A stretch of DNA of 64,000 bases from Bedellia somnulentella (taxonomy: Eukaryota > Arthropoda > Insecta > Lepidoptera > Bedelliidae), in contig OY755171.1 in assembly GCA_963576735.1 (NCBI GenBank), forward strand, positions 14,074,001 to 14,138,000, read 5' to 3'. The translations under genes and the position numbers were made by a program. The notes under the pieces were generated by a model that searched no databases, was not told the DNA's origin, and saw only the letters and a list, made by a program, of their open reading frames with translations. Shown here piece by piece: positions 5,001-63,593 of this stretch. Each line of letters opens with the position of its first letter. Within the stretch, counting starts at the first letter, position 1.

Positions 5001-8000
5001 TATAAGTAAAACATAAGAACTTACCTTTAAATCCGAAACTACGGTCCACACACGGTATGCTTGACGGATTAAAATATATTACATTTAAATTGAAAAAAAG
5101 TCAGTCAATACAGGATCCCTGCTATCAACGAAAAGACGAATAGATTGGTGATGCCGGGCTAAATAATTAAAAAAAAAGAATACCAGGCAACGACTAATAG
5201 TTTTGATTTACGGGATTTTTTTATCCAGTTCTACGGTCGAGACGCAAAACCTTGCGGACAAAGTTGATGCTGAAATTTTAGTGATATACATAAGAAATAG
5301 CTTAAATATCTATATTAAATAAAGATAAACAACTACAAAAGAAACTATAAGGAAAATAATTTAGCAAAAATGTTATTTTTTTTAATATAAACCTTCATAT
5401 ACACACAATATTTTGGAAAACGGACACGCCACGGTCATGACATTTTGCGTATATTTTTTTTTAAATAAAATAATCTACTATATTTACCATAATATTATTT
5501 ACTGAGCAAAGAAATTTAAATAAGTACGAAACCCTATCAGCAGATACAATTTAAGATTGCTCAGAAAACAAATGCTATTCTTACGCGGACATAGAAAACA
5601 TGTAAGAATAAGAAATACCCTAATGCTTCTTCTGCCACACCCAACATTCCCCGCCACAAATACTCATAAGAGTAAGAACTAAAACACCATAATGCACAAC
5701 AATTTAAAATTTTTGGGGCACTGACTAACTGGCAATCATACCTCATGCACATTTTTAAGTTACAAATAAAATAACTGCCCATTAATGCTGAAATTTATTT
5801 ATTTTCAATAATACCATATTCAATTTTTATACAGTAATATAATACATAATAAACAATAACATATATATATATATATATATACATACATACATACATATAC
5901 TCACGCCATTAATTCCCATTGGGGTAGGCAGAGACTATCGATCGCCACTTCGTACGATCCTGACAAACCTCTCTAGCTTCGTTTACATCCATCAATCTTT
6001 TCATACATGCTCTTTTATTCTTCATACTTCGGACGCCAGCCTTTTTGAGCACACTCTCAATTTGGTCCAAGTGTGTTCTCCGTGGTCGTCCTCTACTAAC
6101 ATTACCATCCACACTAGCTCTATAGATCCCTTTTACCAATTTTCTATCATCCATCCTCTCTATGTGCCCAAACCATCTCAACATTCCTTTTTCTATCTTT
6201 CTTACAATATCATCTTTCACACCACACTTTTCACGAATAACGCTATTTCTCACTCGGTCACACAATCTAACATTACAAATTTTTCTGAGGGACCTCATTT
6301 CTACTGCATTCACTCTGCTCTCATGCTTCTTCTGCCACACCCAACATTCGCTTCCATACATAAGCGTAGGAACAAGAACAGCATCATGCACAGCCATTCG
6401 GGCCTTTTCAGACACCGATTGACTGATCATTAGGCTATTCATTGCTCCATTTACCGCATTACCCTTTTTCACTCTTCTTTCAATGTCTTCATCACATTTT
6501 CCATCCCTTGTAAACAAACTTCCCAGATATACAAACTCCTTCACCTGTTCCACATCCTTACCATCAATCGCAATCACGCATTCTGTCACATCTTCCTGTC
6601 TCTCAAAAACCATCGTTTTGGTCTTATCCACATTCACCCTCATTCCCTTTCTTACAAAAGACTCACATGCAATATTCATCATCTCTTGCAACTCTTCTGC
6701 CGATGATGCAAGTAGCACTTGATCGTCAGCATACAAGAGGCATTTAATGATGAATCCACCCATCCTTAGTCCATAATCACTTTCACGCAACTCTGTCAAA
6801 CAGTCATCCATGAACAAATTGAAGAGCCACGGAGAAGCTACACATCCCTGTCGGACACCCCTAGAGATTCCGAACCAGTCAGTGTTTTCCCCGTTTACTC
6901 TTACACATGCACTAGAATCCTCATAGAGTGATACCAATGCACGTATAAGTTGACTCCCCAAACCGAACTTGGATAACACCTCCCATAAACACTTTCTTAC
7001 CACCCTATCATACGCCTTCTCTAAATCAATGAAGGAGCAATACACCTTTTGGTTCTTAGCTAAGAACTTTTCAGTGATGCTCCTTAGAGAGAAGATTTGA
7101 TCCATACATCCCATTCCTTTCCTAAATCCCGCTTGCACATCCCATATTTTCTCATCAGTTTCATTCATCACTCTTTCAATCAGTACCTTAGCATACAATT
7201 TACCAACAATGCTGAGTAAGCTGATGCCGCGGTAGTTTTTAGCCTCTTGGTGTGACCCCTTTCCTTTATATAGAGGCACAATCACCGCCTTGCACCAGTC
7301 TCGAGGAACTTTGCCACTCGACCAGCATTTTTGGAAAAGGAAGTACAACCAAGAAGCCACCAACCCTTTACCAGCCCTCAGCATTTCGATAGTAATCCTA
7401 TCATACCCTGCCGCCTTCCCTACTTTTCATTGCTTTCATTATTTCTTCCATACTAATCTCACTGTCACTGAAATCACCCATCTCTTCGTTCCAATCAACA
7501 TTACTGTCGATTGGCGAAGAAATGGATGCATCCTCTTTTTCAAACAGTCCCTCAAAATAATTCTTCCATACCCGTTTCATGCTACTTTCATCCGTCGCCA
7601 ATTCACCCTGTTCATCTCTTATTACACTCACTCTCGTGTTTTGGGAAACTCCCTTTTCCTTCCGGATATACTTCCAGAATAACTTTTGGTTATTATATAT
7701 ATATATATATATATATATAATAAAATACAGTAACTACTTCAGCACCTAGTTCAACACATTGTTATTGAATTAAAACATAGCATTACACATTGTTTTAAAA
7801 TAAAGTATGTACATGATGTCTTTAGATCCTATAAACTGTCAATATTTTAGACTGTTTATAAAGTTTTAAGTTAAAATATAGCATTACAGATTAGTATGCA
7901 CACAATTTTTTTAGATCATATAAGGACAGTTAAAATTTTAGATTGCTTTTTAAGTGTTTATTTTTTTTAATATATCTTTTGTATGTGTAATTAAGAGTTT

Positions 8001-14381: not shown

Positions 14382-16978
14382 TTGCAGTGTTTATTGATAA
14401 CTACTACTTGGTACAAAATGTCTGAACACTGTGATCTCATGAAAAGAAAACCATCTGGGTCAGAATACAGGAAACGGAAAGCAGAAAAAGAAAAGAATTT
14501 TCAGAAAACAAAGAAGTTTATGAATATAGATAAATATATAACAACAACAAATCAAGACTTGAATGTGGCATCGACATGTGCAATACAAACGAATGCATCG
14601 CCAGTGGAGCCTCTGTCTGGCATGTCAGATGGAAAAGCTACTCAAGATATTGTGGATGAAAAATCCCCAAGTGATGGAGCAAGTTGTACTACGATTGGAT
14701 GGATAGGATTGGATAGGATGAATCTGTTATTTATGTACAGCAAATACATGTAGATGATTGATACTGTTGTCCCGAATATAGCGGATCCAGCTAATTGGCC
14801 TCTTATTCGAAATAGCAAAATAATCGATTATATAATAACTAGTGGCCAACTGCAAACTCACTGTGATGATTATCCGAAAAATGATACAGGACGACATTTC
14901 TCTAATTCTCATTTCATGAAAAAACTAGCAAACAATGAAACAATTCAGCGTCGTTGGTTAGTATACTCCATTTCCAAGGATCGAGTTTATTGTTTTTGTT
15001 GCCGGCTTTTTAATAGTAGCTCAACGTTGAGTTTAGTCTATGAAGGATATAACGACTGGAAACACTTGTCTGATCAGTTAAAAACTCACGAGAATAGCAC
15101 TTCACATAAAAAGTTTTACCTTTCATGGATTGAAACTAAACTACGTTTAAAAATAGGCAAAACAATAGATGAGCAAGAGCAACATTTAATCAAAAAGGAA
15201 ACTACAAGATGGAATAATGTTTTGTCGCGATTGATGCACATTACACTTTATTTAGCTGAAAATAATATTGCGTTCAGAGGTAGTTCTGAAAAATTATATA
15301 CGCCAAATAACGGAAAGTTTTTCGGCTTAGTACAATTACTAGCCAAATTTGATCCAGTTATGCAGGAGCACTTGCGATTAGCTATGAAGGGTGATACAGA
15401 CCATTACTGAATGAATTAATAGAGCTGATGGGTGAAAAAGTGAAGTCGGAAATCATATCACGCGCGAAGAAATCAAAATATTATTCTATTATGGCTGTCT
15501 GTACACCAGACATTAGTCACGTAGAACAACTTTCACTGACAATACGATTCGTTGACTTATCATCAAATGATGATAAAATATCAGTAAAAGAGTATTTCGT
15601 CGAATTTTTACCTGTAAATGAGTCGACTGGTGAAAAACTAACTGAAGTGATTATTGATGTTTTAAATAAACACGGACTTGAATTAAACGACTGTAGGGGT
15701 CAGGGTTATGACAACGGGGCAAATATGAAAGGGAAAAATGTTGGTGTTCAAAAGAGAATTCTAGACATAAATCCTTTAGCTGTTTATGTACCTTGTGGCT
15801 GTCATAGCTATAATCTCGTACTATGCGATGCCGCTAAGACTTCCGTAAAATCAGTTACTTTGTTTGGGGTACTTCAGAGGTTGTTCACATTGTTTTCAGC
15901 TTCTGTTCATCGATGGAAAATTCTAACTGATAGCCTGGGATTATATACTATAAAAAAGCTCAGTGACACACGTTGGGAAGCTAGAATAAGCAGTGTCAAA
16001 GCAGTTCGTTATCAAATTAGTGCGATCTATGACGCTTTAATTATTTTGGCAATTGAAACTCAGAAAACTGATGTTCAAGTCTCTCATGAGGCTACTACTC
16101 TAGCTGAACAATTAAAAGATTACAGTTTCATAGTTTCATTGGTTATTAGGTATGACATACTTTTTCAAATTAACGTCGTTAGTAAATCTCTACAATCACC
16201 AGATATAAATATCAGTCAATGCACAGAAATGTTGAAAAAATGCTGCACTTTCTTGGAAGAATATAGAAATACGGGCTTTAAAAGCGCTATTTTAACTGCA
16301 AAAGAATTGGCTGAAGAACTGGAAGTAGAACCTGTTTTTAGAGCCACAAAAAGAGTTCGATTTGTTAAGCGTCAAGCTGATGAAACTGCCCGCGACGAGC
16401 CTATTGTTTTTCCTGAAAAGAAATTTGAGCTAGAATTTTTTAACTCTCTCTTGGACGCTACATTAATTTCAGTTAAAGAACGTTTTGAACAGTTAAATGA
16501 GTGCTCGGATTGCTGGTCTTTTTTATACAATATTAAACAGATTCCTGAAAAACCTGACCTTGTGAAACTCTGTAGTGATCTTCAATTAAAATTAACTGTT
16601 GATGCTAAATCAGATATAGATGGTTGTATGTTGTGTGATGAACTGATAAGCCTGAAATCTTTTTTGCTTGGTCAGAATGTGGCTTCCCCTGCTTATGTTT
16701 TAAATTGTATTTAAGATCGCAACTTACAGGAATTGTATCCAAATATATGGATAGCATTGCGAATATTACTGACTATACCTGTAACGATTGCCAGTGGGGA
16801 AAGGAGTTTTTCTAAGCTGAAGCTGATTAAAACATATCTGCGATCGACAATTTCTCAATCTAGATTAACAAACCTAGCAACTTTGTCAATCGAAAATGAA
16901 ATTGCAGAAAACATAGACTTTGAATGTCTAATAAAAGAGTTTGCCGATAGAAAGGCCAGAAAAGTGAAATTTTATTAG
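14382..16978 (+). pseudogene. hAT transposase (ZMYM/TTF zinc-finger type), broken
   Basis: Coding remnants of a DNA transposase. The basic N-terminus (14382-14753) is followed by an in-frame TAG. 14754-15410 carries the TTF-type zinc-finger region (DPANWPLIRN, YCFCCRLFNSS, WKHLSDQLKTHENS with the expected Cys/His). After a frameshift with lost codons near 15410-15428, 15428-16714 carries the RNase-H-like catalytic region (GQGYDNGANMKGKNVGVQ, CGCHSYNLVLCDAAK, LSDTRWEARISSVKA). A stop TAA at 16712-16714 precedes the C-terminal hAT dimerisation domain (IPVTIASGERSFSKLKLIKT, SRLTNLATLSIE; 16733-16978). Two stops and one frameshift make it non-functional as read. Order and motifs fit hAT transposases related to the ZMYM1-like group. 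Confidence 0.9.
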
Positions 16979-31221: not shown

Positions 31222-33622
31222 ACAACGACGAGTGACGGCCACAACTGGTACTACCATCGCCATTTTGAAATTTCAGTCTGTCATTGTCAGTTAGCACTAC
31301 TAAATGAAACTTATAGGGTGACCTACATATATAATAAATTATCATACATACATACATACATATACTCACGCCATTAGTTCCCATTGAGGTAGGCAGAGAC
31401 TATTGATTGCCACTTCGCACGATCCTGACAAACCTCTCTAGCTTCGTTTACATCCATCAATCTTTTCATACATGCTCTTTTATTCTTTATACTTCGGACG
31501 CCAGCCTTTTTGAGCACACTCTCAATTTGGTCCAAGTGTGTTCTCCGTGGTCGTCCTCTACTAACATTACCATCCACACTAGCTCTATAGATCCCTTTTA
31601 CCAATTTTCTATCATCCATCCTCTCTATGTGCCCAAGCCATCTCAACATTCCTTTTTCTATTTTTCTTACAACATAATCTTTCACACCACACTTTTCACG
31701 AATAACACTATTTCTCACTCGGTCACATAATCTAACATTACAATTTTTTCTGAGGGACCTCATCTCTACTGCATTCACTCTGCTCTCATGCTTCTTCTGC
31801 CACACCCAACATTCGCTTCCATACATAAGCGTAGGAACAAGAACAGCATCATGCACAGCCATTCGGGCCTTTTCAGACACCGATTGACTGGTCATTAGGC
31901 TATTCATTGCTCCATTTACCACATTACCCTTTTTCACTCTTCTTTCAATATCTTCATCACATTTTCCATCCCTTGTAAACAAACTTCTCAGATATACAAA
32001 CTCCTTCACCTGTTCCACATCCTTACCATCTATCACAATCACGCATTCTGTCACATCTTCATTACTCTCAAAAACCATCGTTTTGGTCTTATCCACATTC
32101 ACCCTCATTCCCTTTCTTACAAAAGACTCACATGCAATATTCATCATCTCTTGCAACTCTTCTGCCGACGATGCAAGTAGCACTTGATCGTCAGCATACA
32201 AGAGGCATTTAATGATGAATCCACTCATTCTTAGTCCATAATCACTTTCACGCAACTCTGTCAAGCAGTCATCCATGAACAAATTGAAGAGCCACGGAGA
32301 AGCTACACATCCCTGTCGGACACCCCTAGAGATTCCGAACCAGTCAGTGTTTTCCCCGTTTACTCTTACACATGCACTAGACTCCTCATAGAGTGATACC
32401 AATGCACGTATAAGTTGACTCCCCAAACCGAACTTGGATAACACCTCCCATAAACACTTTCTTACCACCCTATCATACGCCTTCTCTAAATCAATGAAGG
32501 AGCAATACACATTTTGGTTCTTAGCTAAGAACTTTTCGGTGATGCTCCTTAGAGAGAAGATTTGATCCATACATCCCATTCCTTTTCTAAATCCCGCTTG
32601 CACAACCCATATTTCCTCATCAGTTACATTCATCACTCTTTCAATCAGTACCTTAGCATAGCAATAAATTATCATTTACATTAATACTTTTTGTAGTGGA
32701 AAGTTTTTTTTAAAGACAATTATTTATCATATATTTGTTTGCTTATTAATAAACGCTTTTCTTTCCAGTATTCAATATAAAAATTAATGAAAATTATTAT
32801 TTATTTTGCTAAAATTATCTAAGTAGGCTGACTCCGTCCGCAAAGTTGTGCGCACATGACTATAGCGGCGCGGGTGACGGGAAGTGGAGAAATGTTTCCT
32901 AATAAGATTTCACTTCGTATACGCTGATGCGTGGGTTCTGATTCTAATGCGGGGATGTACCATGCATGTGTCATTTTTTAAATCATAATTGTCTGACCTA
33001 AATATAAAAATACAAGGTTGTTAACAGCAATAGAAAAGTGCCCATAAATCCACTAACCCAGTAAAATGAATGACCCAAACGATATCTGATGTTTAGAATT
33101 ATTTTTTCTGTGCCACTTTTTTAGGGGATCTATGTGTGAATATTAAATGTAAGACAGTACACGATAAGGTCTTTAGGCCTCAGATTTACAGGATGAAAAA
33201 AAATGTAGGTACACACTTTTTTACTCTAAGTGTCACAAAAAACAAATTCTTGAGTGTAAAATAATGAAACAGTTTACAGAGAAGTACAATTGGCAGTGTT
33301 GTAGCAGTATCTTCCAGACAACATTTGGAAGGTAAGATCAGTAAATTCAGGCTACACAGTCATTTGGGTAGACATACAAGACAAGGGCAAAAATAAGCAA
33401 ATATAATTAGCTTATATTCAAAAGAACTTATTTACTTACAACAATATATTAATTAAATTAATATTACATAAATTGTTTTATTAAGACATTTCAATACATA
33501 AATAAATTAGCCTGTATGATTTAAAATTATTCCTCATATAATGATATTTTTTTATTTACTGGCAATAACAATATCGATGACAGCGACGCCTTAACCGGCC
33601 AAGAAAAGTTTGTGAATCTGTA
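31219..33622 (-). mobile_element. Tc1/mariner-type element, copy 1, split by an RTE
   Basis: Inverted similarity to 46807-48613: CGCCATTTTGAAATTTC, GACAATGACAGTC-like, TTATAGGGTG, AAAAATTAATGAAAATTATT, GTGCCCATAAAT, GGGTCATTCATT-type blocks and the terminal CCGGCCAAGAAAAG. The right terminal repeat is at 33595-33622; the left one is lost or replaced next to the MITE ending at 31221. An RTE LINE sits at 31346-32662. The 3' end is about 155 bp upstream of the VMA21 start codon. Confidence 0.8.
31346..32662 (-). mobile_element. RTE-clade LINE copy 2, 13-bp TSD
   Basis: 5'-truncated copy with one open frame (32675-31374, 433 aa). The first few residues come from flanking DNA, then KVLIERVMNVTDEEIWVVQA through motif A (FIDLEKAYDRV), motif B (GVRQGCVASP), YADD (LLYADDQVLL) and the RTE C-terminus. 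No internal stop; very similar to the copy at 5885-7690. TSD AATAAATTATCAT at 31333-31345 and 32663-32675. It lacks the endonuclease domain and most of the N-terminus. Confidence 0.93.
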
Positions 33623-34193: not shown

Positions 34194-36574
34194 ATGGACA
34201 ACATTTATTCAAAGGGAGAACTAGTTCAAGTATGCACAAAAAATGATGAAGTAGTCGAAGGCCGATTTTTTGATATGAATTCAGATAAGACCAGGATATC
34301 TTTATATAATGTTAAAGAGTCTCCCAAAAGTTTACCAGAGGATGGTCTTCAACACTATTACGATTCAGAAGTACGGAAAATAACTAAGTTGAAGGATACT
34401 GAGAGTTTAGCTGAAAACTTGGTAAAAATTAAAATATCGCAAAAAGACTGTGAGGATATTATGAAAGTATCTAAGAAGTACATAGTCATAAATCAAGTTG
34501 ATAGTAGTTTCCATGAGGCTTTAGATAATCTAAAGCAATATAGTTATGTCGGGGTCAGTACTGATGGAGCATCTATGGGAAGAAAATGCAAGCTACCATT
34601 CCTTGTTATGTCAACCCCTTTTCAGATCTACATTTTTGATATTGTAGCTATGCAGCATTCAGCCTTTGAGGCTGGGCTGAAAGACATTCTGGAGAGTAAT
34701 CATCCTAAAAAGATAGTCCATGATTGTAGAAAGCTATCTGACTGTCTTTATCATAAACATTTTGTCCAACTCAATTCTGTATTTGATACTCAAGTAAGTA
34801 TTGTTGTTTTTATTAAAATGAAGATAAAAATAAGCAGCAATTTCTTGGTAAAGGAGAACACCCAGATTCTACCTACTTTTGCCATTTTGAATAAGGGTTT
34901 AAAATTACAATCTCTTGTTAATCTTGACTGCTGCAGTAGTCCAAAATTGTGAAATACACTGTACAGTCTTTTTTTAAATACCCTAATGAGCATAAAGGAC
35001 TAAGGCTCAAATCAATTTACTTAAGGTGTCAAATTTTTTCAGAACAGACTTGACAGTGATTTTTTATAGGTGTTTTTCTGTGATAATCTTCATTATCCGT
35101 ATATATTTTTTGTAAATGCTGTCCTAAAAAAAATATGTTGTCCTCTCTAAAAGACTCAAACAAACCTTAAATCAAAGCAAACAATAAATCCATTATTATG
35201 ACTTAAACCACAAAGGTATAGTTGAAGAGCTGTCTTGCAAAAAAAGTTTATAATATGATAAGATAACATACCCTGAATCCTGATGACTGCCATGTAGCCC
35301 TCCTGTATCCTTTGCAATAATATAGGCCCCATGCATGGGGCACTAAAACCATAACTGCTAAATCAAGTCCATTACTTGTGGTAAATTTTAAAGTATCAAT
35401 TATATTTTAGGTCGGTGATCTCATCATCACAAAAAACAAATGTGGACGTTTACCTGTTACAGTCAGAACCTTAAAACAGTGCTTAAACCATTATTTGGGA
35501 CTACCATTAAATTCAGTTGAAGAGAAGGTATGTTGTTTTGTTATTTAACACACTATGAACAATATGTATAGTATATTTCATGCTTTGATTTATGTGTGCA
35601 TGCAATGATTTTAGCATGTTCACATATGCAAATCACATTTGTATACAGTTAACTACATGTAAGGTATGTGTCACTTTGTGTGATAAAAATGCTGTATTGG
35701 CCATGGTCATGTATGATATGTGGAGAAAAAATAAAGTTCTTGCAGTCACCCAATTCTATATTGTGTATAAATTTGTAATCATTCAAAAGCCTGGTTCAGT
35801 AATACACTTTCAAGCAGAATATCTTGGAGTCATCCAAATGGCCCAGGCTATGATGAAAAGAGATATTTTGGAAATTACTAATATTATTGCTGAAAGTACT
35901 TATACTTATATAGCAACATGATAGTCCAGTGGGTAGAACACCCACCCAAAAAACAGAAGGGCGTGAGTTCCTATCCTGGGTCGGGCCTACACCAATTTGT
36001 CTTTTCTAAAGTCATATGTGTGGTTAATTTATCATGGTTGTTATCGGTGAGGGAAAACATCGTGAGGAAACCCACATGGCTGAGTTGTACTTAGTCATGT
36101 GACAGTGTATTCGTACAAAACGGCGATAGGCCTGCCCCCTATCACGTGAGTACACTGTCTAAGCAAAACGTGGGTACCTTCTCTGGACACTAGATGGCAC
36201 TGCCATGTGAGTTCAGAAGTATTGGTACCTCTGCCAACCCCTTCGGGGATAAACGGCGTGAACGTTTATGTTTATGTTATGTTACTTATACTTGATTATA
36301 ATGACTTCTTAATATTACTTTTTGTTTACAGTTTGATATAGTGCAATGCACTGAACGCCCATTACCTTCAACTTTAAAGGAAACACTCTCCAAAAATATA
36401 TCATATCTACATCGATTGTCTGAAATAATAAATGATGAAATGGCAATGCCTTTTATAAGAGGTGTGGATTGTTATATTGAAAACCTGCGATCGTGTGATG
36501 ACTTCAAAGCCTGGGAATTATGTGGAAATATTAATCAAGCACCAAAGGAATTCAAAAATGCTATTGAATATTGA
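34194..36574 (+). CDS. Exd1: EXD1-like piRNA biogenesis factor
   Basis: Three exons, all phase 0: 34194-34793, 35411-35527, 36332-36574; 319 aa. Residues 1-75 form an Lsm/Sm-like domain (MDNIYSKGELVQVCTKNDEV, VEGRFFDMNSDKTRISLYNV). The rest is a 3'-5' exonuclease (RNase D-like) fold: YSYVGVSTDGASMGRK, PFQIYIFDIVAM, KKIVHDCRKLSDCLYHK, VFDTQVGDLI and ERPLPSTLKE. In active DEDD enzymes the first motif is D-x-E; here it reads D-G-A, so the catalytic Glu is missing, matching the known inactivity of EXD1. In mouse and silkworm EXD1 works with TDRD12 as an RNA adaptor in piRNA production (family knowledge). Intron 1 is 617 bp. Intron 2 holds a SINE-B copy. AATAAA at 36989-36994 is a likely poly(A) signal. 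Confidence 0.88.
35913..36276 (+). mobile_element. SINE-B copy in EXD1 intron 2
   Basis: tRNA-derived head ATGATAGTCCAGTGGGTAG (A-box-like), GTGAGTTCCTATCC (decayed B box), GGTCGGGCCTACACCAATTT, and 3' end CTGCCAACCCCTTCGGGGAT, GGCGTGAACGTTTATG. Same orientation as EXD1. Confidence 0.9.
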
Positions 36575-43300: not shown

Positions 43301-46098
43301 AAACATAAATAATGCAAAACAACTCACCATTAAAACAGCAACCATCATATCTGAGATCTCCTGCGCTAACCCCATATAATAGTCGGAGTCTGATCTGAAG
43401 GCGTCTCTAGTCACCGGATCGTCTATACCTAAGCTCATTAGGTACGCTTTAAACCTAACTGTGTCGTCTTCTGAGATATCACCTTGTTTGTCCTGAAAGA
43501 AAATGGGATCAATAAATAATAAAAGAATTGGTTATTTAGTAGGATAATTATATTCAATGTACAGTTTACAAGATCCCCCTGATATTTGTGGCTTGTTGTC
43601 ACTGCAAGTACTGTGGATCCGGGAGCTTGTCGAGGGTTGTGCTACTCACATGATGGGGCATAGTACATAATTATATTGTGTTCCAATTAGGAAGACATAA
43701 AGCTGTACAATACTTTGGAAGGGTAAAAGAGATAGTTGTTTCAAACCATAAGATTTTAGTTAGAGAACCAGTGTGGTACCATGCAGGATGGTACTGTATC
43801 TGCTATGTTACATTTTACAAGGTTAGGTCAGTAGCCACCTTATTTTTGTTGTTTGTGATGGGCTGCCTTAAGTAATGACCAACAAAAACTAGAATATTTG
43901 TTTCTGCTTAGTCTCCTTGTACAATGTATATGAATGTGGTACTGGGTACTATATGAGCTGACTGCTTATAGATAAATTATTGCTTTATAGAGGGAAGCAA
44001 TAATTTCATTCTGAAAATACTATTTCAGAGAAAAGTATATTGGAAGTAATTTAGTAGATTAGTTCAAACTTATCATTATTTATTTTGATATTATTGCTAA
44101 GATTAAACAAAATTTCATGTATGGAGGAAATATATAAATGTTTTATTATAATGAACAAAACATACCCTTATTCTAGTAGAAATATTTTTAGATATAGCCA
44201 CCATATCTTTTGCCTTTTCCATAAGTTTTGTCAGATCTTGAAATGCTACACTAATACTTGCATCAGTTGCTCTATGATGTTCTTCAATACTTCTTTCAAT
44301 TCCAACAATGCCAGACCTCATTTTTGAAGTCACAGGAACAATAGGTTTTGGACTAATACTAGAACTTGTTGGACTAGTTTGTGCAGAGACATTTTGTTTT
44401 TCCCAAGCTTTGTTGGCTACAGCTTCACTAAGTGCTTTGAAAAACGCAGAATCTATTCCATCTTTAAATGAAAACTTTATAAAGTGAAATGTGCTGACCA
44501 TAGCTGGGCCAGGTCTTTTTCCTACAACAAAAAAGAACATGTTAAAACTTATTATTGATTTCTAATCCTCAATGCTCAACCAAAGAAAAGACATATACTG
44601 CAAAAATAACATAACATAAACGTTCACGCTGAATATCCCCGAAGGGATTGGCAGAGGTACTAATACTTCTGAACATCACGTGACTTTGTCACCTGGTGTT
44701 CAGAGTACCCACATTTTGCATGGACAGTGTACTCACGTGATAGGGGGCAGGCCTATCGCCGTTTTGTACGAATACACTGTCACATGACTAAGTACAACTC
44801 AGCCATGTGGGTTTCCTCACGATGTTTTCCCTCACCGTTAACAACCATGATAAATTAACCACACATATGTCTTTAGAAAAGACAAATTGGTGTAGGCCCG
44901 ACCCAGGATTTGAACACTAGTCGTTTGCACGATAACCGAGTGTTCTACCCACTGGGCTATCATGTTTGCTTTGCACACTGCAAAAATCTTTGAAATAAAA
45001 AAAATTTTAATATGGAACATTTCAATGCCAAGTGTATGTTAGACATAATGGAACATTGAATTATTTGATAAGATATTTACCATATAGTATGGAGATAGGG
45101 TAGGGAAAACTTTGCAAGTAGCAAGCGGTGACTTAAGGTTTTGGGACATTTTTTAAGTTTAATTTTTGGGTGATGTGCCTCAATTCCAATCATCAACCAT
45201 CCTTCAAATTACAAGCCTTTGTCGCTACTTAAATTTCACCATTTACTTATTTATTCCCTGGGCATTGTATGAACTTATTTACAGAGAAAACATCCCTTAA
45301 TTGAACCTATAGGTTAGTATATGAGTTTGATATCTGTATCTACTGGACCAGTAGCTTTTTACATGTGATACTGCAGCTCTTTAGAATATATAAAGATGAA
45401 TACAAGTATTATGTATTGCTAATTATAATAAAATTAAGGCCTTTTGAAAAGTAGTAACTTTCAAATAATTGCTATTTTGACCCATAAGGTAGCCAAAATC
45501 TGTACTAAAACAATTTTACTATCATTTATGAAAATCCAACACAGCCACAAATATAACAGCACATATTTTTTAATAAAAACAATATTTTAATTGAAAGAGA
45601 AATAATTTGTTTCAGAGACTAGATTACTGTGATATGAACTTAATAATTTAAAAAAATAGGCGCAAGACTAAGACATTTTAAATCTAATGAAGGTATAATC
45701 TCTAACAAAGAATAGAGAAAAGTTTACAAGAGCTCACCTGGTAGAGATGGTCCTAAGTGGAGAATGATTCGTTTTGGCCCACCAAGTCCAAAAACTCCAC
45801 TACTTTCTTCCTCAATACAGAAAACATAGTATAAATGTAAAGATAAACAAGTCAGTCCTTTAGGAATATCACCTGGTTTGCCCCACAATATCCTGTGTGA
45901 GGTTAGAACGACTTCGCCATCAATAAACTGAGTCTGCAAAGACATACTTAGTTTATAAAAATTTAAACGACTTTATTTTTTAATTTAATTAGTATGGCAA
46001 ACCTTATCATCTCCATCATAAATTTTAACATTTTTATTTCGTTTCAAATAAGCTTCTCCTTCAAACAACCGTGCCTCCATGTACTCAAAACGATCCAT
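40379..46098 (-). CDS. Vps36: VPS36, ESCRT-II subunit
   Basis: Seven exons on the minus strand: 46098-46003, 45933-45738, 44521-44166, 43492-43328, 42338-42238, 40953-40839 and 40552-40379 (stop TAA). All phases match; 400 aa, near the usual metazoan length. The N-terminus is the GLUE (split PH-like) domain, about residues 1-135: [56 protein letters not shown] linker and helix follow ([28 protein letters not shown]). The rest is the winged-helix EAP30/SNF8-like part: [60 protein letters not shown] and [10 protein letters not shown]. The protein binds ubiquitin and phosphoinositide and works with VPS22 and VPS25 on endosomes to build multivesicular bodies (family knowledge). No NZF finger is present, as in other animals. 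Introns carry SINE-A, SINE-B and RTE pieces. Confidence 0.95.
41053..41145 (-). mobile_element. RTE 3' end fragment
   Basis: ATACATACACTCACGCCATT, CAGGCAGAGACTATCGATTG and CCTGGCAAATCACACTC; last ~90 bp of the RTE. In VPS36 intron 5. Confidence 0.75.
41267..41502 (-). mobile_element. SINE-A copy
   Basis: Minus orientation, complete, TTACATACTCACGGCTATAA to GCCGACACTACACAGCA; in VPS36 intron 5. Confidence 0.9.
41692..42055 (+). mobile_element. SINE-B copy
   Basis: Head CCGTGATAGCTCAATAGGTA, GAGTTCAAATCCCGGGTCGG; end CCCCTTCGGGGATATTCGGC, GTGAACGTTTATG. Antisense to VPS36, intron 5. Confidence 0.9.
42582..42608 (-). mobile_element. SINE-A head fragment
   Basis: TATTCTAAGCCGACACTACA then CAGCA; only about 27 bp of the SINE-A head is left. 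Confidence 0.6.
42862..43097 (+). mobile_element. SINE-A copy
   Basis: TAGTGTAGTGCCGGCTTAGC head, ATAGCCGTGAGTATATAT tail; antisense to VPS36, intron 4. Confidence 0.88.
44616..44969 (-). mobile_element. SINE-B copy
   Basis: Minus orientation, complete, from CATAAACGTTCACGCTGAAT to the tRNA-like head at 44905-44969 (ATTTGAACACTAGTCG, CCCACTGGGCTATCAT). In VPS36 intron 2. Confidence 0.9.
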
Positions 46099-53792: not shown

Positions 53793-56700
53793 ATGACTGA
53801 TTCCAAAGACTTAATTCTTCAGAAAATTCAAGAACAGGGTGATTTAGTTAGAAAACTTAAAGCAGCTAAAGAGTCTAAAGAAAAGGTTGGTATGATCACA
53901 CAACATTACATCTATTCATTCAAAATATAGTTTAGTTTGTTTTTAGCTATATTTGTAATAAACATCACATTTTTGCAGTACTATTGCCAAAAAATTCTGG
54001 GTTCCTTCCCTATCTAAAACATGACTTAGTAAACCCTTCACTCTCCTATCAGTATGGAATTAAATAAATAAAGCCATTTGGCCTTTTAGGGTAGCAACTT
54101 AAATGTAGCTACAGAAATATAAAGGGATGAGCTGGCTATGTATTTACAAGAACCCTTAAAGCTAAATGATGACAAACAGTGGTATTATACCTACGGATCA
54201 TTGGATATATTAATTTTATTTGATAGACAATTCTATTGGGTTGTCGAAACATTATTGAAAGATGTCCTGCAACTTAGCAGCTATTGTACTCTTATGTCAA
54301 ACTCACTGAGAGTGGCATGGAAAGAGGAAATATGTATGCCATTAAAAGCCATTTTAATATAATTACTATTGTATTAAAATAAATAGTATCTAAATTATTG
54401 TGTTTCAAGAGAGTTTAACCTACTCAATACTTTATTTGCGCTCCACAATGGTTGTTAAAGTTATAAAATATTTTCTTAGTATCACATTATGGACCTGATT
54501 AATAAAGTAATAAAAAAGAAATAGAACTGTTTTGGTTCAGCATTTCTAAAGCCAAATACCTATCAATTTATTTATACAATGTTATTTTAATTAAAAAAAA
54601 AAGGAAACATTTTCGCTTCTATTAGTTTTTGTATTTTTCCATTGGAATTAGTATTAAATATTATTTTATAACCAATATGAAACAAAATTGAAACATTTGC
54701 TTATTTATAGGATCCAAATTGTGGCATGGATTTAAATCTCAGCGAGTTAAATACTCACTTATCAAATTTTAGTTACATTTGTGGTTATGAGCCAACTAAA
54801 ACTGACACAATTTATAGAAATAAATTATCTGAAAAAAGAGTTAATATAAATCCATATAGTCATATCATGAGATGGTGGTACCATATGCGGAGTTTCACAG
54901 ATGATGAAGAGTCAAACTTTTCTAGTTCTGATATCCCAGAGTTTCTAACTAAACAAACCAAAAAGTGTTTGGATACTCAGGTGAGATGCCAGTGGAACCA
55001 TTCATTTCTCACCTGCTGTGCATATGGCATGCAATTGTAAATATATAACTCTTATAGAAACATTTACTTTGTCTGTAGTACTTCAAGCCTGAGTAAGGTG
55101 ATTTATGCTTATGAGATATTTTATTTTATGATATTTGTTTTGGACTGTAAAAAAAATATAATTTATCTTATTTCTTAGCTTTTTTCTTTTTCAATTGAAG
55201 TTGTTTGACTAAAAGACATGATTTTAACCTTAGAATACTTAAACACATTTGCATTGTTGTGCTATTTGGTTGCCGTTGATGCTGATAAAAATCCAAAGAT
55301 CCTTATTACTCTGGAAAGTTCAAGATCTGCTTGACTCTCTGTGCCATAGTTTTATTCAGTGTGTAGCTAGTATTTTAACTATATTTTCGGAATATCTGTA
55401 AATGATTGTAAATAAATATGAGATAACTCTAAATATGGTATTCCATCATCACCTAGTAAAATATTAATGTAAATTATGAATAACATTATTTTGTTTTTGT
55501 TCTGGGTAATTCATCAGTGGTGATGGAATCCTGTATTTGGTTTTAACTATCAAAGAAACAGTTAGCCAATATGTTTGCTTTCAAATTATTTGGTATTCTC
55601 AAAAGTAGATCAACTACAAGCTTGTTGCGTAACAACTGTCACAAGCATTGTGTAAAAAGTATTGCAACAACATCTTGTAATCAACAGGTAGGTTATGCTT
55701 GGTGTTGGTCAAAAAATTGATGTAGTAGTTTTAGATTTTCCAAGATGTTTATATTGTTAAGTTATGATTACTTGTATGTATTGTTTAGTCACATAAATTA
55801 TAAATCTTGTATATCCTTGGAATGTTAGTGTTTTTTTTTAAAAGTTCTTTTTCTGTCATAAAACAAGAAACATTATTGAAACATTAGTTTTTTTTATTAC
55901 AGATACAAGAGGAAGTATCAAAGTTATTAGAACTTAAGGCTCAATTAGCTGGAGAAGATGCTGCCGCCGGGCCACAAAAATTCATTCTCAAGACGCCAAA
56001 AGGCACTCGAGATTATAACCCTCAACAAATGGCTATTAGGAATGGAGTGTTAGACAAAATTGTAGAAGTCTTCAAAAGACATGGAGCAGAATGTATTGAT
56101 ACACCTGTTTTTGAATTGAAGGTTTGTCTTATATTTATGATGGTTTATGTATTCCCTCTTTTTGTTGATTTAAGTTAAATACTTAAATCTGCTTTATAAT
56201 AGATTGGAGTCTAACTAAGCTATTGTCATACAAATTAATAAAGTATTTTTTTGCGTGTTATATAATTCATCTGGTTTCTTTATTAAAAACTGAAACTTTT
56301 TATTTTATTTTCTTGACTAAATAGCTGGTCTCAACTTTTGCCCTCTTAGCTTTACGATGATATTGGATTTAAATAACTTGGTGGGAAGATAATGAATTAA
56401 AATAATTATTTAATACCTTTGACAAATTATTGAAATATTAGCATGATTTTATATTATACAGGCATGAGATGCTCAGCAACCTATTTAAAAGTGGTTCACT
56501 TGCTAGTTAATTGGTTTTTTTTTCTTTACTTTGATGGTCTTTGCCTAAACAACTACTTTTTCTTTTAAGAGTTTGAATTTACTTTACCAGGTGGTCTGCT
56601 CATTTGCCAAAAGCTTATGAGAAATATACTATTTTCCATTATTTATAAGATTTAATATTGAGAGGTTTATATTAACAGTTGTTATATTTTTATATCCATA

Positions 56701-59700
56701 AATTAATCTCTTTTAATTTTGATGATTTTATTAATAATTCAACTATAAGTGATATTTATCAATTTGTGATCTGTTTTCCAATCTATTTTAACATCAAGCA
56801 TTTTTTTCTTTGTAGTGTTTGAATGGAAATAATTTTAAACTTATTTGTGTTGCCGTTTTCCGCATTGATTTCAGAAAGTTCCAACTCAGGCATTAGGAGT
56901 AATTTTCAGTTGATAATTTTCTTGTTAAATCATTTTCCCTACAAAACCTATAATCATGCACTACCACACTACTACTACTCTAATACAATCATTGCTATTT
57001 CCAGGAAGTACTAACTGGAAAATATGGTGAAGATTCAAAGCTAATATATGATTTGAAAGACCAAGGAGGTGAGATATTAGCACTGCGGTACGACTTAACA
57101 GTTCCGTTAGCGCGCTACCTGGCTATGAGCAAGATAAGCAACTTGAAACGATACCACATTGCTAAAGTTTATAGGAGAGATAACCCCTCTATGAGCCGAG
57201 GAAGATATAGGGAGTTTTATCAATGTGTAAGTTGGTGCTTTTTTGACTAAATAATGTTGTATAATAAATATCTACTGTTGTATTGGAGGACCATTTGTGA
57301 TCTAGATTGATTTTGTATATCTTTTTGTAAAATTTAATTAATTGAACACAATATTTGTACACTGTCCAAGCAAAACGTGTGTACTCTGAATACAGGGTGA
57401 CAATAATGTCACTATATGTTTAAAAGTACAGTGAATGTTTGAGTTCAAGACATTATTTATTTAAACACTTTATTGCATACACAAAAACACACAAACAGTA
57501 TATTACACAATAGTTACAACAGTACATGTACACAAAGGCGGACTTATCGCCTTAACGCGATTTCTTCCAGTCAACCTTTATGGTGAGGAACAAATTAGAC
57601 AACTCTTTAAAACATTATGGTCAAGTATATATGCAACTTAAATAGAACTTAACTAAACATAACTTATTTACAACCTGTATATTAATTATATATATAATAA
57701 TTATTATATCAAATACACTATACAATATCTTAATAAATATACATGTATATACATACTTATATAATATAATATAATAAATACAAATAAATACATATACCTA
57801 ACTTTATAAAATCTACCAACCTAAGGTTTTAAAAAAATGGGATTTCAGTTTATTTTTAAATATATTTAGTGATGATGACAGCCGTATGTCAACTGGTAGT
57901 GAGTTCCATAAATTAACTGCTCTGGCTGCAAAGGAATCACCATATGTAGCACTGTTATGAGAAGGTACACTCAACATCTTATTCTCCTGTGATCGCAAGG
58001 CACGGCCGTGGGAGCACAAGTATGTGAACTTGGAACGAAGATAATGGGGGGCAGCAGGATTATTAAGGGCATTATATAAAATACAGAGAATATGAGTATT
58101 CCTCCGAAGTCGAATTGGGAGCCACTTTAGTTGAGCGCGGTACTCAGAAATATGATCATATTTACGTAATCCAAAAATAAATCGGATACATAAATTCTGG
58201 AGAAGTTCGAGTTTGTTAAGTAGCTCCTCTGTGAGGTCAAGATAGCTTACATCTGCGTAATCGAGAATCGGAAGCAGTAGAGACTGCGCCAGCGTAATCT
58301 TAGTGTGGTGAGGCAGGAAAAATTGCAAGCGCTTAAGTGAGTGACAGGATGCAAAGACTTTTTTACTTACGGCTTCCACTTGGGGCAACCACGAAAATGT
58401 ACTGTCCATAATAACTCCCAAATTCTTGACAGAATTGACGAAGCGAATATCAGTGCCATCATAGGTCAACTTCTTATCTAGAGCAATATTTGCTTTGTTC
58501 AACAACCTCGAACTGCCAAAAATAATTGCCTGTGACTTATCAGGATTCAGCAGAAGTCCAAACTTCTTCACCCATTTCGATATTATCTCCAGGTTATTAT
58601 TTATGACATCAACTGCCGAGTTTATATCTTCCGGAAGAGCACTTGTGTAGATTTGAAGGTCGTCTGCATATAGGTATTATTGATACAAAATAATAATAAA
58701 TTGTATATTATGAAAAATAATGAAAATAGCATGCACGCACACTAAATTTTGAATAACTTTTAAATAAAATCTTTTATTCCAGGATTTTGATATAGCTGGC
58801 CAATACGACCCCATGGTACCAGATGCAGAATGTTTGAAAGTGGTCACAGAAATTTTGGACACATTAAATATTGGTAAATATGTGTTGAAAGTGAACCACA
58901 GAAGATTATTAGATGGGATGTTCGAAGCTTGCGGTGTGCCAGCTGACCAGTTTAGAACTACTTGCTCTTCAGTGGATAAGTTGGACAAGGTAATTGGACT
59001 AAGTAGAGAGAAAGTATTTAATTTGTGGACCAAAAGAAAAGATCCTTGTTAAGTTGAAGTATAATAACCTGGAAATCGAAATTATAGTATGTATCGCATA
59101 AACTTCGATTGCACAATGTTTGATTTCTGTGGAGGCTTTATATCGTGACGTTAATATCGAGTTGTTACGTGTTTAATTGTGGAATGAGAATCTTTTTGCA
59201 ATGTATCGCGTTTTAGCGATACTTGACCTATTTTCAGTAATGTTGAAAAAAAGAATCACTCTTTGTCTTATTAGTTTATCGTGTCTTCATAATATATCAA
59301 ACATTTTCAGTGATAAGGAATTTTTGCGTTTTGACTTGTAGAATGTGAGTCTTTTTGCAATGCTTTTCTTTCTTTACTTTGATGGTCCTTCGGATGACAC
59401 CGTTTTCTTAGGGATAACTCTAGACTCCAAGCTCCAATGGGGACCCCACATTAGCTCACTAGCTGGCAGGCTAAGTAGTGCTGCATATGCCGTTAGGAAA
59501 ATAAGACATTTGACAGATGTACAGACAGCTCGATTTATTTATTACAGCTATTTTCATAGTGTAATGTCTTACGGTATTTTGCTCTGGGGCAGAGCAGCTG
59601 ATGTTGGTTCCATATTTATTCTTCAAAAGAGAGCAATAAGAGCTATTTATAATTTGAGATCACGAGATTTCCTGACCTGAGAAAATTGTTTAAAACCATA

Positions 59701-62700
59701 AATATAATGACGCTGCCATGTCAATATATTTATGAAAATATTATGTATGTAAGAAAAAATCAGGCGTTTTTTGTAAAAAATAGTGACAGACATATTCGAA
59801 ATCTGAAAGACAACAATAAAATTTCAATACCTAAATACAGATTGTCAAAAGTAAATACATCTTTCATGGGGTTATGCGTGAAAATGTATAATAAAATAAC
59901 TGAGGACATTTTAAATTTATCAGAAACAAAATTCAAAGCAGTAGTTAAAAGAAATCTTAGTTCGAAAGCCTATTACAATGTCAATGATTACATTAATGAT
60001 GAAGTGGCTTGGTGTCATCAGGGCTCTGTGCAGGATGTTTCCGGGCTAACACCAAAATTGTAATGGACGTAAAAAAAGATGTGTGTTGACGAGTTTCTTA
60101 TGGGTTCTTCTCTCAACAAAACACCTTCGGAATCCGAAGTAAACTTAGCATTAAGTCGGAATTTGACTTTCAAAAAACAAAGATTTATCTTTTTACTTTC
60201 ATATAAATGATTATTTTATTTTAAAAGAAAAAAAAATGTTACAAGTCGCATCGCGTTTTAGCGAAACATTACCCATATTCAGTGAGGTTGAAAAATAAAA
60301 TCACTCATTGTCTTAGTAAATTTAATCGTGTTAACGCAAACATAACAACGATTTTGAGTGATATAAAATTGTTGCGTGATGAATTGTGGAATGTTAATAT
60401 ATTTGCAATGATACGAGTGGCATCGTCGCGTTTCTTGAAAACATTGCTTATTTTCAGTAAGGTTGATAAATAAAATCACTCAGTGTGATTGTTATAACTC
60501 AACAATTTTCGCACAAAATAAAACTGTCGAATCAGTCTGCATCACAATTTATGATGATGGATTGAAAAGCTATCAGACTATTCAGATAAGTAAATAAGAT
60601 TTTGTCGGCTAATAAAGACAATATTTTATTATATCTCAAAGTTTTCTATACATTTAAATTTATGATAACATGGAGAAGAACATACAGTAGCATAGTGTAA
60701 TAATTACTTTTAAAAGCATTGAAAAAGCTTAATTTTACATATTAACTATGTGCAACTTTTTTTTTTGTAGTCCCCGTGGGAAGAAGTAAGGAACGAAATA
60801 ATAAATGAAAAGGGCATAACTCCCGAGGCGGCGGACAAAATAGGCGAATATGTACGACTAAATGGCGGAATAGAGTTGGCAGAAAAACTACTCAGTGATG
60901 AGAAGTTATCCAAAACTAAAGCTGCTGTAGAAGGCCTTGATGGCATCAAACTGTTGCTCCACTATTGTGAACTTTATGGGATAAAGGATAAGATCGTTTT
61001 TGATCTGAGTTTGGCTCGAGGACTGGATTACTACACGGGATTGATTTATGAAGCTGTTTTTACTGGTAAGTTTTGATTTTATCTTAATTTCTTATTAGTT
61101 AAGTGGCGGTCCATAGTTAGCTTGGCCCAATGAGAATTAAATGGCGTGACTATGTGTATATGTGCTTGTTGTAACAGACAAGGTTACTCTTGTAATCGTA
61201 GCTACTACGATTCTCAGAAGTATAGTCATCTTACTAAAACTACAACACACTGGCTTAAAAAACGTTTATTTTAGAACAACTCCATTCATTAATATGCAAC
61301 GGATATAATGTAGGGTCTCGAATTTAATCTTGAAAAAGCATCATAAAAAGTTGTTGAGGCTGATTTTTAGGCGATGCGATAGGAGCATCCATCACCAATA
61401 TCCTCTATTATAAAATCTCCACTTCCAAAAGTTGCTGCGGAATTCCTGCGTCTGAATTATTCACTTTACTTTCCGCTGCCCAGCTTGGCGTTCTCACAGC
61501 TACCGAATAAATACTTGATACAATATATACAATTTCCCATCCAATTACGCTGAATTAATTAAACATACAAAACATCTAATTCAAGGTTTATTAAATATGA
61601 ATTGGCTTCTATCGTGTTTCTAATAAATAAAGAATAAATAAAGGAAAGAAAAATTTCGACACAGGTACCCAAAAAATTTTTCTTTCCTTTATTTATTAGT
61701 AATAATCCCCACATGAGGTTTTCATGAACAAAAAGATTAAATTTCTATCGTGTTTGCCACAATAATTTCACCAGTATTGAGTGAATAATTTCGCGCGCAT
61801 ATAATAAAGACAACTAATAATCAATATAGTAATTAAATAATGTAAATTTCAGAGCCATTGAAGCTTGGCGGAGAAGAGTTATCAGTCGGATCCATAGCTG
61901 GAGGAGGTCGTTACGATAATCTCGTCGGCATGTTTGACTCTAAGAACAAGCAGGTATGATTATGTGTATTAGTTTCGAGTTTTTAATGCCACTTGAATGT
62001 TAAGTGATGCACATTATTAGCTGGGTAGTTTTGGGTGCGAATAGCACTCACCCATTCCTTCTCGCGGTTGTCGATGCGGTTAGAGAGCCATCACCAACAG
62101 CCTTTATTTTTAATTTTTTTCTGCTCTCAACTTCCATAAGTGGTTTTTAGTTTGTAGGAATTTCTTATTATGAAGCTCTTGCTACCAACATAGCTAGCTA
62201 GGGATATCAACCAGTGAGCATATGTATGTAGAACGTTGAAAAACCACAGCTCTACTAAATTTCCTCTTAACCCTCAGGTACCCTGTGTCGGTGTAAGTGT
62301 AGGCGTAGAGCGAATATTCTCGGTGATGGAAGCGAAATTGGCCGCTGGTGAAATGAAGGTCCGCACGAATGATGTCGAAGTGTATGTCGCTTCTGCACAG
62401 AAAAACTTCCTTGAAGAGCGCATGAAGATCTGTACGGAACTGTGGAATGCAGGGATTAAGGTCAGTTATCATCATCATTATATTATACATACATATACTC
62501 ACGGCTATAACTCCCTAGAAGGGGTAGCCAGAGCCAAGGAATTATAAATTCCTCAGCCACTTTTGGAAGTTGAGTGGGGAAAAGGTGGTAAAATAAAGGT
62601 TGTTGGTGATGGGTCTCCAGCCGCATCGCCTAAAAATCCCTTAAAAGCCCAAATACCGTTAGTCGCCTCTTACGTACATCCACCGGAAGAAATGGGGTAG

Positions 62701-63593
62701 TGCCATTCTAAGCCGACACTACACAGCTAAAGTAAGACATTATGAGTAAAATATTGTCCGTTCTGATTTTATCTTAAATAGTGGTTTTGCATTACAAAAC
62801 CAACACTGATTGATGAATTAGCTAATACAAACGAGTACATGTAGAATTGCACCAAAAGTTCCATTTCTTTAGTCACCTTTCACGAGATTATGCAAAGAGA
62901 TCTGTTGGGACATTTGAACGAAGGTCAGTGTGTTTAACCAGCTCATTTGCTAGTTCAATAGTCTGGTGTGATAACAAATTCTCTGAAACTAGAAAAGACA
63001 CCGTGGAACAGCAAATTTATTTGTTTTAAGAAATATTATTTTCCGCATTTTTAGTAGTATTTTTTTAATTCCTATATTTTGTGGCAAAATTTTTTTATTA
63101 TGAGTTTCCTAGCATCACAATATGTAACATTGTTATGTTTGGTTTGGAACATAATGGTATTCCAATGAAGAGCCCATTTATTTATTTGTAGATAAGTTAA
63201 AAGAAAAATTTTGAATTTTTAAAAATATGTTAATAAAAATTTTAATGACTAAAAAGAACCAAAACTACCCTAGACCTAGACATGAAAACTTCCTTATTAT
63301 TATCTTGTAGCTAATAATGCCTTTAACTAATTCCTAATGTATTAATTTTCCATATGCAGACGGAACAATCCTACAAGAAGAACCCAAAAATGCTGAACCA
63401 ATTGCAGCATTGTGAAGACACTGGTATTCCCTTAGCTGTCGTACTTGGCGAGTCAGAACTTAAAAGAGGAATTGTGAAAATTCGAGATATTACCACGAGA
63501 GAAGAGACAGATGTTCCTAAAGAAAATCTTGTGGACGAACTCAAAATAAGAATTAAACAGCTAAATCTAAAAAAAGTTAACGGAACATCATAG
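53793..63593 (+). CDS. HisRS: Histidyl-tRNA synthetase (HARS)
   Basis: Cytosolic form, eight exons: 53793-53885, 55903-56121, 57005-57226, 58783-58989, 60771-61065, 61853-61953, 62278-62460, 63360-63593. Phases agree at all junctions (phase 1 after exon 5, otherwise 0); 517 aa, the usual metazoan size. It charges tRNA-His with histidine. Residues about 8-50 form the WHEP helical hairpin ([32 protein letters not shown]). The class II catalytic core follows: motif 1 region [13 protein letters not shown], motif 2 [20 protein letters not shown], HisA signature [20 protein letters not shown] and motif 3 [11 protein letters not shown]. The anticodon-binding domain is [20 protein letters not shown] to EELVDELK-like end and NGTS-stop. 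AATAAA lies at 63806-63811. Two further in-frame exons (54711-54980, 55571-55687) predict alternative forms and are listed separately. Introns hold LINE, satellite, SINE-A and trl sequences. Confidence 0.96.
54711..54980 (+). CDS. HisRS: HARS cassette exon: GST-C/eEF1B-like domain
   Basis: An open 90-codon block bounded by TTATTTATAG and GTGAGATG, phase 0 at both ends, so it can be included or skipped without shifting HARS. The peptide has [20 protein letters not shown] (like the SYI-GY-P motif of eEF1B and CARS N-terminal GST-C domains), [10 protein letters not shown], and [12 protein letters not shown] (like HALRWYNHIKSY of eEF1B), then an acidic FTDDEESN linker. It would sit between the two WHEP helices; the product would be about 607 aa. 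In eEF1B and aminoacyl-tRNA synthetases such domains mediate complex assembly. Its use in HARS is inferred only from sequence. Confidence 0.72.
55571..55687 (+). CDS. HisRS: HARS alternative first exon: mitochondrial presequence
   Basis: ATG at 55571 opens 39 codons ending at a GTAGGT donor (55688), phase 0, fitting directly onto the exon at 55903. The peptide [20 protein letters not shown] continues with several Lys/His and no Asp or Glu, as expected for a matrix-targeting presequence. Animals need HisRS in both cytosol and mitochondria, and several make both from one gene (family knowledge). The predicted mitochondrial form is 525 aa and lacks exon 1, hence the first WHEP helix. Confidence 0.78.
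57356..57430 (+). mobile_element. SINE-B internal fragment
   Basis: ACACTGTCCAAGCAAAACGT, GTACTCTGAATACAGGGTGA; middle part of SINE-B only, in HARS intron after exon 57005-57226. Confidence 0.6.
57450..58675 (-). mobile_element. LINE (jockey/CR1-like), 5'-truncated, in HARS intron
   Basis: Minus strand, antisense to HARS. The open frame runs from about 58675 ([18 protein letters not shown], the YADD box) through [80 protein letters not shown] and [20 protein letters not shown] to the stop at 57813, without internal stops. A 3' UTR of about 350 bp follows, with TTTATTGCATACAC on the plus strand. Same family as the decayed copy around the hAT element at 11-17.5 kb. N-terminal RT and endonuclease parts are missing. 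Confidence 0.9.
59088..60480 (+). repeat. Satellite-like units (~112-172 bp) split by a LINE
   Basis: In the HARS intron after exon 58783-58989. Repeated blocks: ATCGCGTTTTAGCGA with ATTTTCAGTAA and GAATCACTC at about 59202-59280, 60250-60310 and 60425-60485, and a GGAATG...TTTGCAATG end at about 59178, 59340 and 60388. About two units lie before, and nearly two after, a LINE inserted at about 59362-60235. Confidence 0.65.
59362..60235 (+). mobile_element. LINE RT remnant (jockey-like)
   Basis: Plus strand. [47 protein letters not shown] and [12 protein letters not shown] to a stop near 59680, then a frameshift and [20 protein letters not shown] to a stop at 60061-60063. Followed by a 3' UTR (CGGAATCCGAAGTAAACTTA). 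5'-truncated and broken. Confidence 0.85.
61340..61500 (+). mobile_element. Strongly diverged SINE-A
   Basis: GATTTTTAGGCGATGCGATA, CATCACCAATATCCT, CTTCCAAAAGTTGC; ends lost. HARS intron. Confidence 0.5.
61620..61742. mobile_element. Palindromic trl copy, 13-bp TSD
   Basis: AATAAATAAAGGAAAGAAAA and TTTCGACACAGG, then after a few bases the inverse, AATTTTTCTTTCCTTTATTT to CATGAGGTTTTCATGAAC. TSD TTCTATCGTGTTT at 61607-61619 and 61743-61755. The tRNA-like part is nearly all missing. HARS intron. Confidence 0.88.
62022..62228 (+). mobile_element. Diverged SINE-A in HARS intron
   Basis: AGCTGGGTAGTTTTGGGTGC head, GAGCCATCACCAACAGCCTT, and CAGTGAGCATATGTATG tail, ending about 50 bp before the exon at 62278. 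Confidence 0.75.
62487..62728 (-). mobile_element. SINE-A copy in HARS last intron
   Basis: Minus orientation, complete, ATACATATACTCACGGCTAT to GCCGACACTACACAGC, starting 27 bp after the exon end at 62460. Confidence 0.92.

Follow-up and report, generated by a model that had tools for sequence, protein, structure and literature searches.

Does the gene for histidyl-tRNA synthetase (HARS) of the moth Bedellia somnulentella carry an exon for an eEF1B-type domain in the middle of its WHEP hairpin, and what would such an exon do for the enzyme? The window analysed here is a stretch of 64,000 nucleotides (contig OY755171.1, positions 14,074,001 to 14,138,000). On its + strand lies a HARS gene of eight exons with AG/GT at all intron borders, which reads as 517 residues when the block at 54711-54980 is skipped and as a single chain of 607 residues when the block is included. 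The chain shows 77% identity to Heliothis HARS over the whole length. The exon chain, together with Pfam searches of ten relatives, corresponds to a cytosolic HARS with WHEP, in which the catalytic and anticodon parts follow the hairpin. The features of the locus are as follows.

53793..53885, + strand: HARS exon 1, with the start codon and the first helix of the WHEP hairpin, 31 codons, donor AAG/GTTGGT (aligned with insect HARS)
54711..54980, + strand: GST exon, predicted optional, 90 codons, eEF1B-type GST-C domain, phase 0 at both ends (borders, frame, profile and fold comparison)
54738..54908, + strand: part of the GST exon that aligns to the human eEF1B-alpha N domain (own-genome search, E 0.088, 31% identity; the profile match is far stronger)
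55571..55687, + strand: putative alternative first exon encoding a leader of mitochondrial type (continues in frame into exon 2; isoforms listed for other Lepidoptera have counterpart leaders)
55903..56121, + strand: HARS exon 2, second WHEP helix and beginning of the catalytic part (exon chain; insect HARS alignment)
57005..57226, + strand: HARS exon 3 (exon chain in frame)
58783..58989, + strand: HARS exon 4 (exon chain in frame)
60771..61065, + strand: HARS exon 5 (exon chain in frame)
61853..61953, + strand: HARS exon 6 (exon chain in frame)
62278..62460, + strand: HARS exon 7 (exon chain in frame)
63360..63593, + strand: HARS exon 8, ending with the stop codon (exon chain in frame)

Two long open frames elsewhere in the window (5912-7384 and 31377-32675, both on the - strand) contain a reverse transcriptase domain (RVT_1) and are likely retroelement remains. 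In the HARS introns that precede exons 4 and 5, two open stretches (57813-58571, - strand; 59345-60063, + strand) look reverse-transcriptase-like by eye, with no Pfam family at E <= 0.001. A frame with EAP30/Vps36 homology (44118-44540, - strand; PF04157) likely belongs to an adjacent ESCRT-II gene. Two further frames have a zinc finger of the C17orf113 type, scoring below its cut-off, with DUF4371 (14754-16714, + strand), and a 3′-5′ exonuclease domain (34194-34949, + strand).

The original prediction described a 90-codon open block with AG/GT borders and phase 0 at both ends, lying between the two exons for the WHEP halves. Its coordinates and phase were exactly as claimed, and the spliced reading frame bears out its position. 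The block comprises 270 bases without a stop and connects 53885 and 55903 in frame. Its acceptor reads TTATTTATAG up to the border and GATCCAAAT after it, the first exon base being G, and its 3′ end is GATACTCAG with the donor CAG/GTGAGA. Open length was rejected as evidence for an exon, as a phase-0 AG..GT open block of at least 90 codons arose in 21 of 1000 dinucleotide-preserving shuffles of the intron. The block was therefore counted as above chance for its homology and not for its length. A profile of 37 insect HARS inserts, built with the window omitted from inserts that had originally been gathered by comparison with the window exon, gave a single match among 2048 six-frame stretches of the window, namely the frame of the GST exon (E 5e-27). 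When the exon was compared with the moth's own genome of 549 Mb (486 contigs, the window being on contig C1), the sole match at E <= 0.001 was the exon itself.

What kind of domain the 90 residues form was approached through families, solved structures and predicted folds. They reached 27.0 bits against the Pfam family Arc1p_N_like, whose cut-off is 27, and among PDB sequences they matched human eEF1B-alpha at E 6e-4. Profile comparison placed the eEF1B-alpha N domain (5dqs_D) first with 56 bits (E 2.2e-14), the next family having 31 bits and the lead over AIMP3 being 25 bits. On this measure, closest kinship to the GST domains of AIMP3, EPRS, MARS or Arc1p was rejected. The listed elements of the predicted exon model are helices only, giving a small all-helical fold like that of the nearest solved structure, the human eEF1B-alpha N domain (PDB 5dqs chain D). 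The same domain came out on top in fold comparison (Z 8.1, 1.7 Z above the next fold), a score that helical models can reach through a common arrangement, and Foldseek with the predicted exon model returned nothing at E <= 0.001 (best E 0.031). The predicted structure thus also points to eEF1B, as weaker evidence than the profile. Individual residues are in line with the assignment: the Anabrus insert and the human eEF1B-alpha N domain agree at 30 of 52 residues, the human domain has 11 of the 12 conserved positions of the inserts, and S21, D32, R54, W55 and S61 are kept in all 38 aligned inserts. The Pfam scan of the exon and of the 38 inserts detected neither a thioredoxin nor a GST_N family. 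A catalytic glutathione transferase was rejected as an identity for a 90-residue exon with helices only and no thioredoxin-like N half. The eEF1B-type GST-C identity that had been read from the peptide is thus upheld by the sequence profile, by the weaker fold comparison and by occurrence in five insect orders, and we regard it as almost certain.

The range of the exon was examined in HARS proteins. A search with the 607-residue form scored 7994 candidates, and the best 120 of 6620 relatives were compared, so that absence from the set is uninformative; with P0122 the set comprised 121 proteins. The GST domain was detected in 49 of them with the 37-insert profile (window omitted), and these came from 47 other insect species. 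We take these species to be 26 Lepidoptera, seven Coleoptera, one Neuroptera, ten Hymenoptera and three Orthoptera. Lack of conservation of the frame in related species had been named as grounds for refuting the exon; checked at the protein level, the frame is kept in all five orders, and the exon was not refuted. Direct searches with single inserts yielded little: the window exon as query (residues 30-124) had no protein at E <= 10 among 201 candidates, and the Anabrus insert (residues 40-162) found three proteins among 323 candidates, two of which were Anabrus itself. The insert is absent from the single Bradysia (fly) protein and from the single pseudoscorpion model (P0004) among the 121.

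The exon had also been expected to split the WHEP hairpin. The domain sits between the two WHEP halves in 46 of the 49 proteins and in 45 of the 47 species; a script pattern counted 45, and the 46th (P0109) failed only on a variant catalytic start motif. Pfam likewise reported WHEP as two separate stretches in nine of ten full-length forms scanned. The three proteins without complete flanks are an annotated Manduca form of 547 residues (P0032), which starts at an internal methionine inside the GST exon, a Molorchus protein (P0097), in which the first WHEP half is missing before the GST domain, and the Schistocerca piceifrons HARS (P0107, 18 member sequences), in which the insert is present and neither WHEP half is recognisable, as if WHEP had decayed while the GST domain persisted. 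On sequence grounds, the block is a genuine GST-C exon of the eEF1B type that is conserved in insect HARS, and its range is wider than Lepidoptera, extending from Orthoptera to Lepidoptera. As a separate observation, two ladybird HARS models (P0006, Harmonia, 975 residues; P0007, Coccinella, 966 residues) start with the WHEP hairpin and KTPKGSRD and contain another TPKGT motif close to residue 536, as though the bodies of two HARS proteins had been fused.

The exon is already inside public gene models, 25 of the 49 domain-bearing proteins carrying the label ‘isoform X1’. Among the 72 proteins that lack the domain, there are plain cytosolic forms with the two WHEP halves directly adjoining, as well as forms that begin with a leader of mitochondrial type. 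Annotations of eight species (Manduca, Heliothis, Epargyreus, Choristoneura, Achroia, Leptidea, Amyelois and Anabrus) list both a domain form and a cytosolic domain-free form, and a leader form is additionally listed for Manduca, Epargyreus and Leptidea. The Manduca forms P0010, P0035 and P0046 have one gene tag, O3G_MSEX005706. Based on the isoforms listed for these eight other species, the GST exon is very probably an optional exon, with both forms being made. Seven proteins come from short contigs, six of source ‘lgn’ (1,686-3,926 bases) and one of ‘jgi’ (2,005 bases), and none of them has the domain. These entries are probably transcripts, because the contigs are so short for a gene with long introns, and inclusion may therefore be rare and not the main form. 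Since the GST exon precedes the putative mitochondrial first exon, transcripts that begin at the latter cannot carry the GST domain.

Where the insert came from was considered in relation to the moth's own eEF1B-alpha gene. The human eEF1B-alpha domain, compared with the own genome at E <= 10, found the HARS exon and two places, both on contig C18; the HARS exon itself had only E 0.088 in this search, so that further diverged copies could escape. The two places belong to one gene.

L002 1302-1381, 1512-1752 and 2178-2522 (C18): exons 1, 2 and 3 of the moth eEF1B-alpha gene, the two domain matches being in exons 1 and 2

This gene is complete on C18, and its third exon encodes the exchange-factor domain. 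A phase-2 intron after 80 coding bases cuts its GST-C domain within the SYISGY stretch, whereas the HARS copy is a single exon. A second exchange-factor (EF1_GNE) locus was seen at C5:10462151-10462363. The HARS exon and the moth's eEF1B-alpha are identical at 22 of 67 residues. A recent copy of eEF1B-alpha was rejected as the origin of the HARS exon on this low identity and on the grouping of the moth eEF1B-alpha with human eEF1B-alpha (97/90), and not with the inserts.

The alignment used for the structure and profile comparisons (A1) comprised, besides the window, 37 of the 46 remaining segments, near-duplicates being omitted; P0032, P0075 and P0097 were left unaligned. Two trees of the domain were built. 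In the first, which included human eEF1B-alpha, Lepidoptera (98% bootstrap), Hymenoptera (100%), Coleoptera (92%) and Orthoptera (52%) each formed one side of a branch, and the six groups needed five changes, the least possible. The second tree had the moth eEF1B-alpha and AIMP3 added and 44 inserts, three near-duplicates of the first tree being dropped; it contained the pairing of human and moth eEF1B-alpha mentioned above, and its AIMP3 row was very long and unsure in placement. In its best topology the 44 inserts were not united to the exclusion of eEF1B and AIMP3, a grouping seen in 0% of 200 bootstrap trees, but a tree uniting them was not rejected (p-AU 0.473). Orthoptera and eEF1B formed one side of a branch with support 99/97. 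This grouping fits a root at eEF1B with Orthoptera branching first, and a separate orthopteran capture is possible as well. The simplest reading is one capture before the split of Orthoptera and Holometabola, followed by vertical inheritance. The insert has diverged rapidly: the window insert has a mean identity of 36% to 23 lepidopteran inserts, compared with 84% for the protein behind WHEP. Such fast evolution means that a docking surface could have drifted.

We propose that inclusion of the eEF1B-type GST-C exon, itself predicted to be optional, would dock the cytosolic enzyme on eEF1B-gamma, which we consider reasonably probable by analogy. The analogy draws on three systems: the 5DQS structure, a complex of the N domains of eEF1B-alpha and eEF1B-gamma as given in the excerpts of PMC10452860 and PMC7160314; a splice variant of CARS1, bearing an insert at the GST domain, that inhibits EEF1G, according to a passage of PMC9166799; and the link of VARS to the eEF1 complex. 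In the Bombyx HARS model (pLDDT 77.3, pTM 0.60), a WHEP helix (2-31), the insert helices (41-96) and a second WHEP helix (112-132) form separate sets, and the insert is therefore predicted as a separate unit in the WHEP turn. The inserted domain would fold independently between the two WHEP helices and could take, on eEF1B-gamma, the kind of site used by the eEF1B-alpha N domain. The part of the HARS pool made with the exon would then attach to the elongation-factor-1 complex, and docked HARS might pass His-tRNA to eEF1A by a more direct route. Docking would be confined to the cytosolic enzyme, because transcripts with the mitochondrial leader cannot carry the domain. A caution applies to any such proposal, for PMC4394549 warns that the membership of synthetases in complexes cannot be predicted from their sequence alone. 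The wider statement, that insects link HARS to the eEF1B complex by an optional exon whose docking domain was captured once, in the WHEP turn, before Orthoptera and Holometabola parted, is put forward tentatively, at a little under an even chance.

Docking could instead be directed at the multi-synthetase complex, through a GST-type scaffold such as AIMP3, AIMP2, EPRS or MARS and not through eEF1B. We consider this unlikely, given the lead of eEF1B-alpha over AIMP3 in the profile comparison and, by 1.7 Z, over the next fold. To our knowledge, HARS is also not one of the nine synthetases in that complex. The Drosophila complex is said to comprise the same nine as in mammals in the excerpts of PMC4394549. 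Another possibility is that the insertion acts without a partner protein, as a splice-controlled switch that parts the WHEP helices and so alters tRNA binding or activity. The location of the insert in the WHEP turn and the split WHEP matches in nine of ten forms agree with such a switch, and WHEP is thought to serve both protein contacts and tRNA binding (in a passage of PMC9956352). However, a plain spacer need not keep five residues in 38 of 38 inserts, and Schistocerca retains the GST domain without recognisable WHEP halves, which makes this explanation rather improbable. The exon might also be a decaying, seldom used relic that gene predictors retain because it is open, as its rapid divergence, its absence from all seven short-contig proteins and the Bradysia protein listed without the insert could suggest; a relic would not be expected to stay open and keep invariant residues across 47 species in five orders, and we hold this to be more improbable still. 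That the block, having its own fold and a family different from HARS, belongs to another gene lying within the HARS intron is scarcely credible, as the insert profile matches no other frame of the window, the moth's eEF1B-alpha gene is complete on another contig (C18), and the domain is joined to both HARS WHEP halves in nearly all of the proteins that bear it.

The preferred reading, an optional exon through which HARS may dock on the eEF1B complex, can be set beside systems already known. Kim et al. reportedly described an optional N-terminal exon of human CARS1 with elongation-factor association. In both CARS1 and, as predicted, HARS, a synthetase gains by alternative splicing a stretch that associates with elongation factors. 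CARS1, compared here by description, is a class I enzyme, whereas HARS is a class II enzyme in which the exon parts the WHEP hairpin. No description of a GST domain in HARS was found among the titles and abstract openings listed for the HARS, eEF1B or CARS literature, and reports beyond these could exist. The AARS Online table, as excerpted from PMC11580382, gives the GST superfamily for CysRS, GluRS-E, MetRS and ValRS, all of class I, and has HisRS in the class II list with WHEP only. A Drosophila synthetase paper (PMC4826098) has a HisRS row with an entry 3, and the term GST is absent from its main text. The original prediction that no such domain was known in HARS therefore stands for the literature searched, and does not hold for public gene models, in which the exon was already annotated. 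A domain in the gene models of dozens of species can remain unnamed, and this one was below the Pfam cut-off in all ten full-length forms scanned.

The closest counterpart of the insert is the eEF1B-alpha N domain (EEF1B2; PDB 5dqs chain D), which is likewise small and helical, with no thioredoxin half found, and was the best match in both profile and fold. In eEF1B-alpha this domain heads a nucleotide-exchange factor, whereas the HARS copy is an insertion in a synthetase. The GST-type domains of AIMP3, EPRS, AIMP2, MARS and Arc1p belong to the same superfamily; they were lower-ranked matches, and their profile scores put them further from the insert than eEF1B-alpha. According to PMC4394549, a GST-like domain brings VARS into the eEF1 complex, a link that could be confined to Deuterostomia; the restriction may not be strict, since the title of one paper in its reference list concerns VARS of Artemia and elongation factor 1. 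In vertebrate VARS1, a GST-like N domain connects the synthetase with the eEF1 complex, as is proposed for the HARS insert; VARS1 has a predicted full cGST fold at its N end, whereas the insert of insect HARS is a C-half only, internal and predicted to be optional. A synthetase that borrows an elongation-factor-associating domain by splicing is thus of a known kind, while the carrier, the insertion point and the taxon appear new to us. If inclusion and binding are true, tRNA channelling could be tested in silkworm or flour beetle with a natural pair of forms, with and without the domain, that a single gene provides, and why histidine among all amino acids would become a question. The exon would then be an insect answer to the vertebrate links through VARS and CARS, placing the channelling of one aminoacyl-tRNA under the control of splicing.
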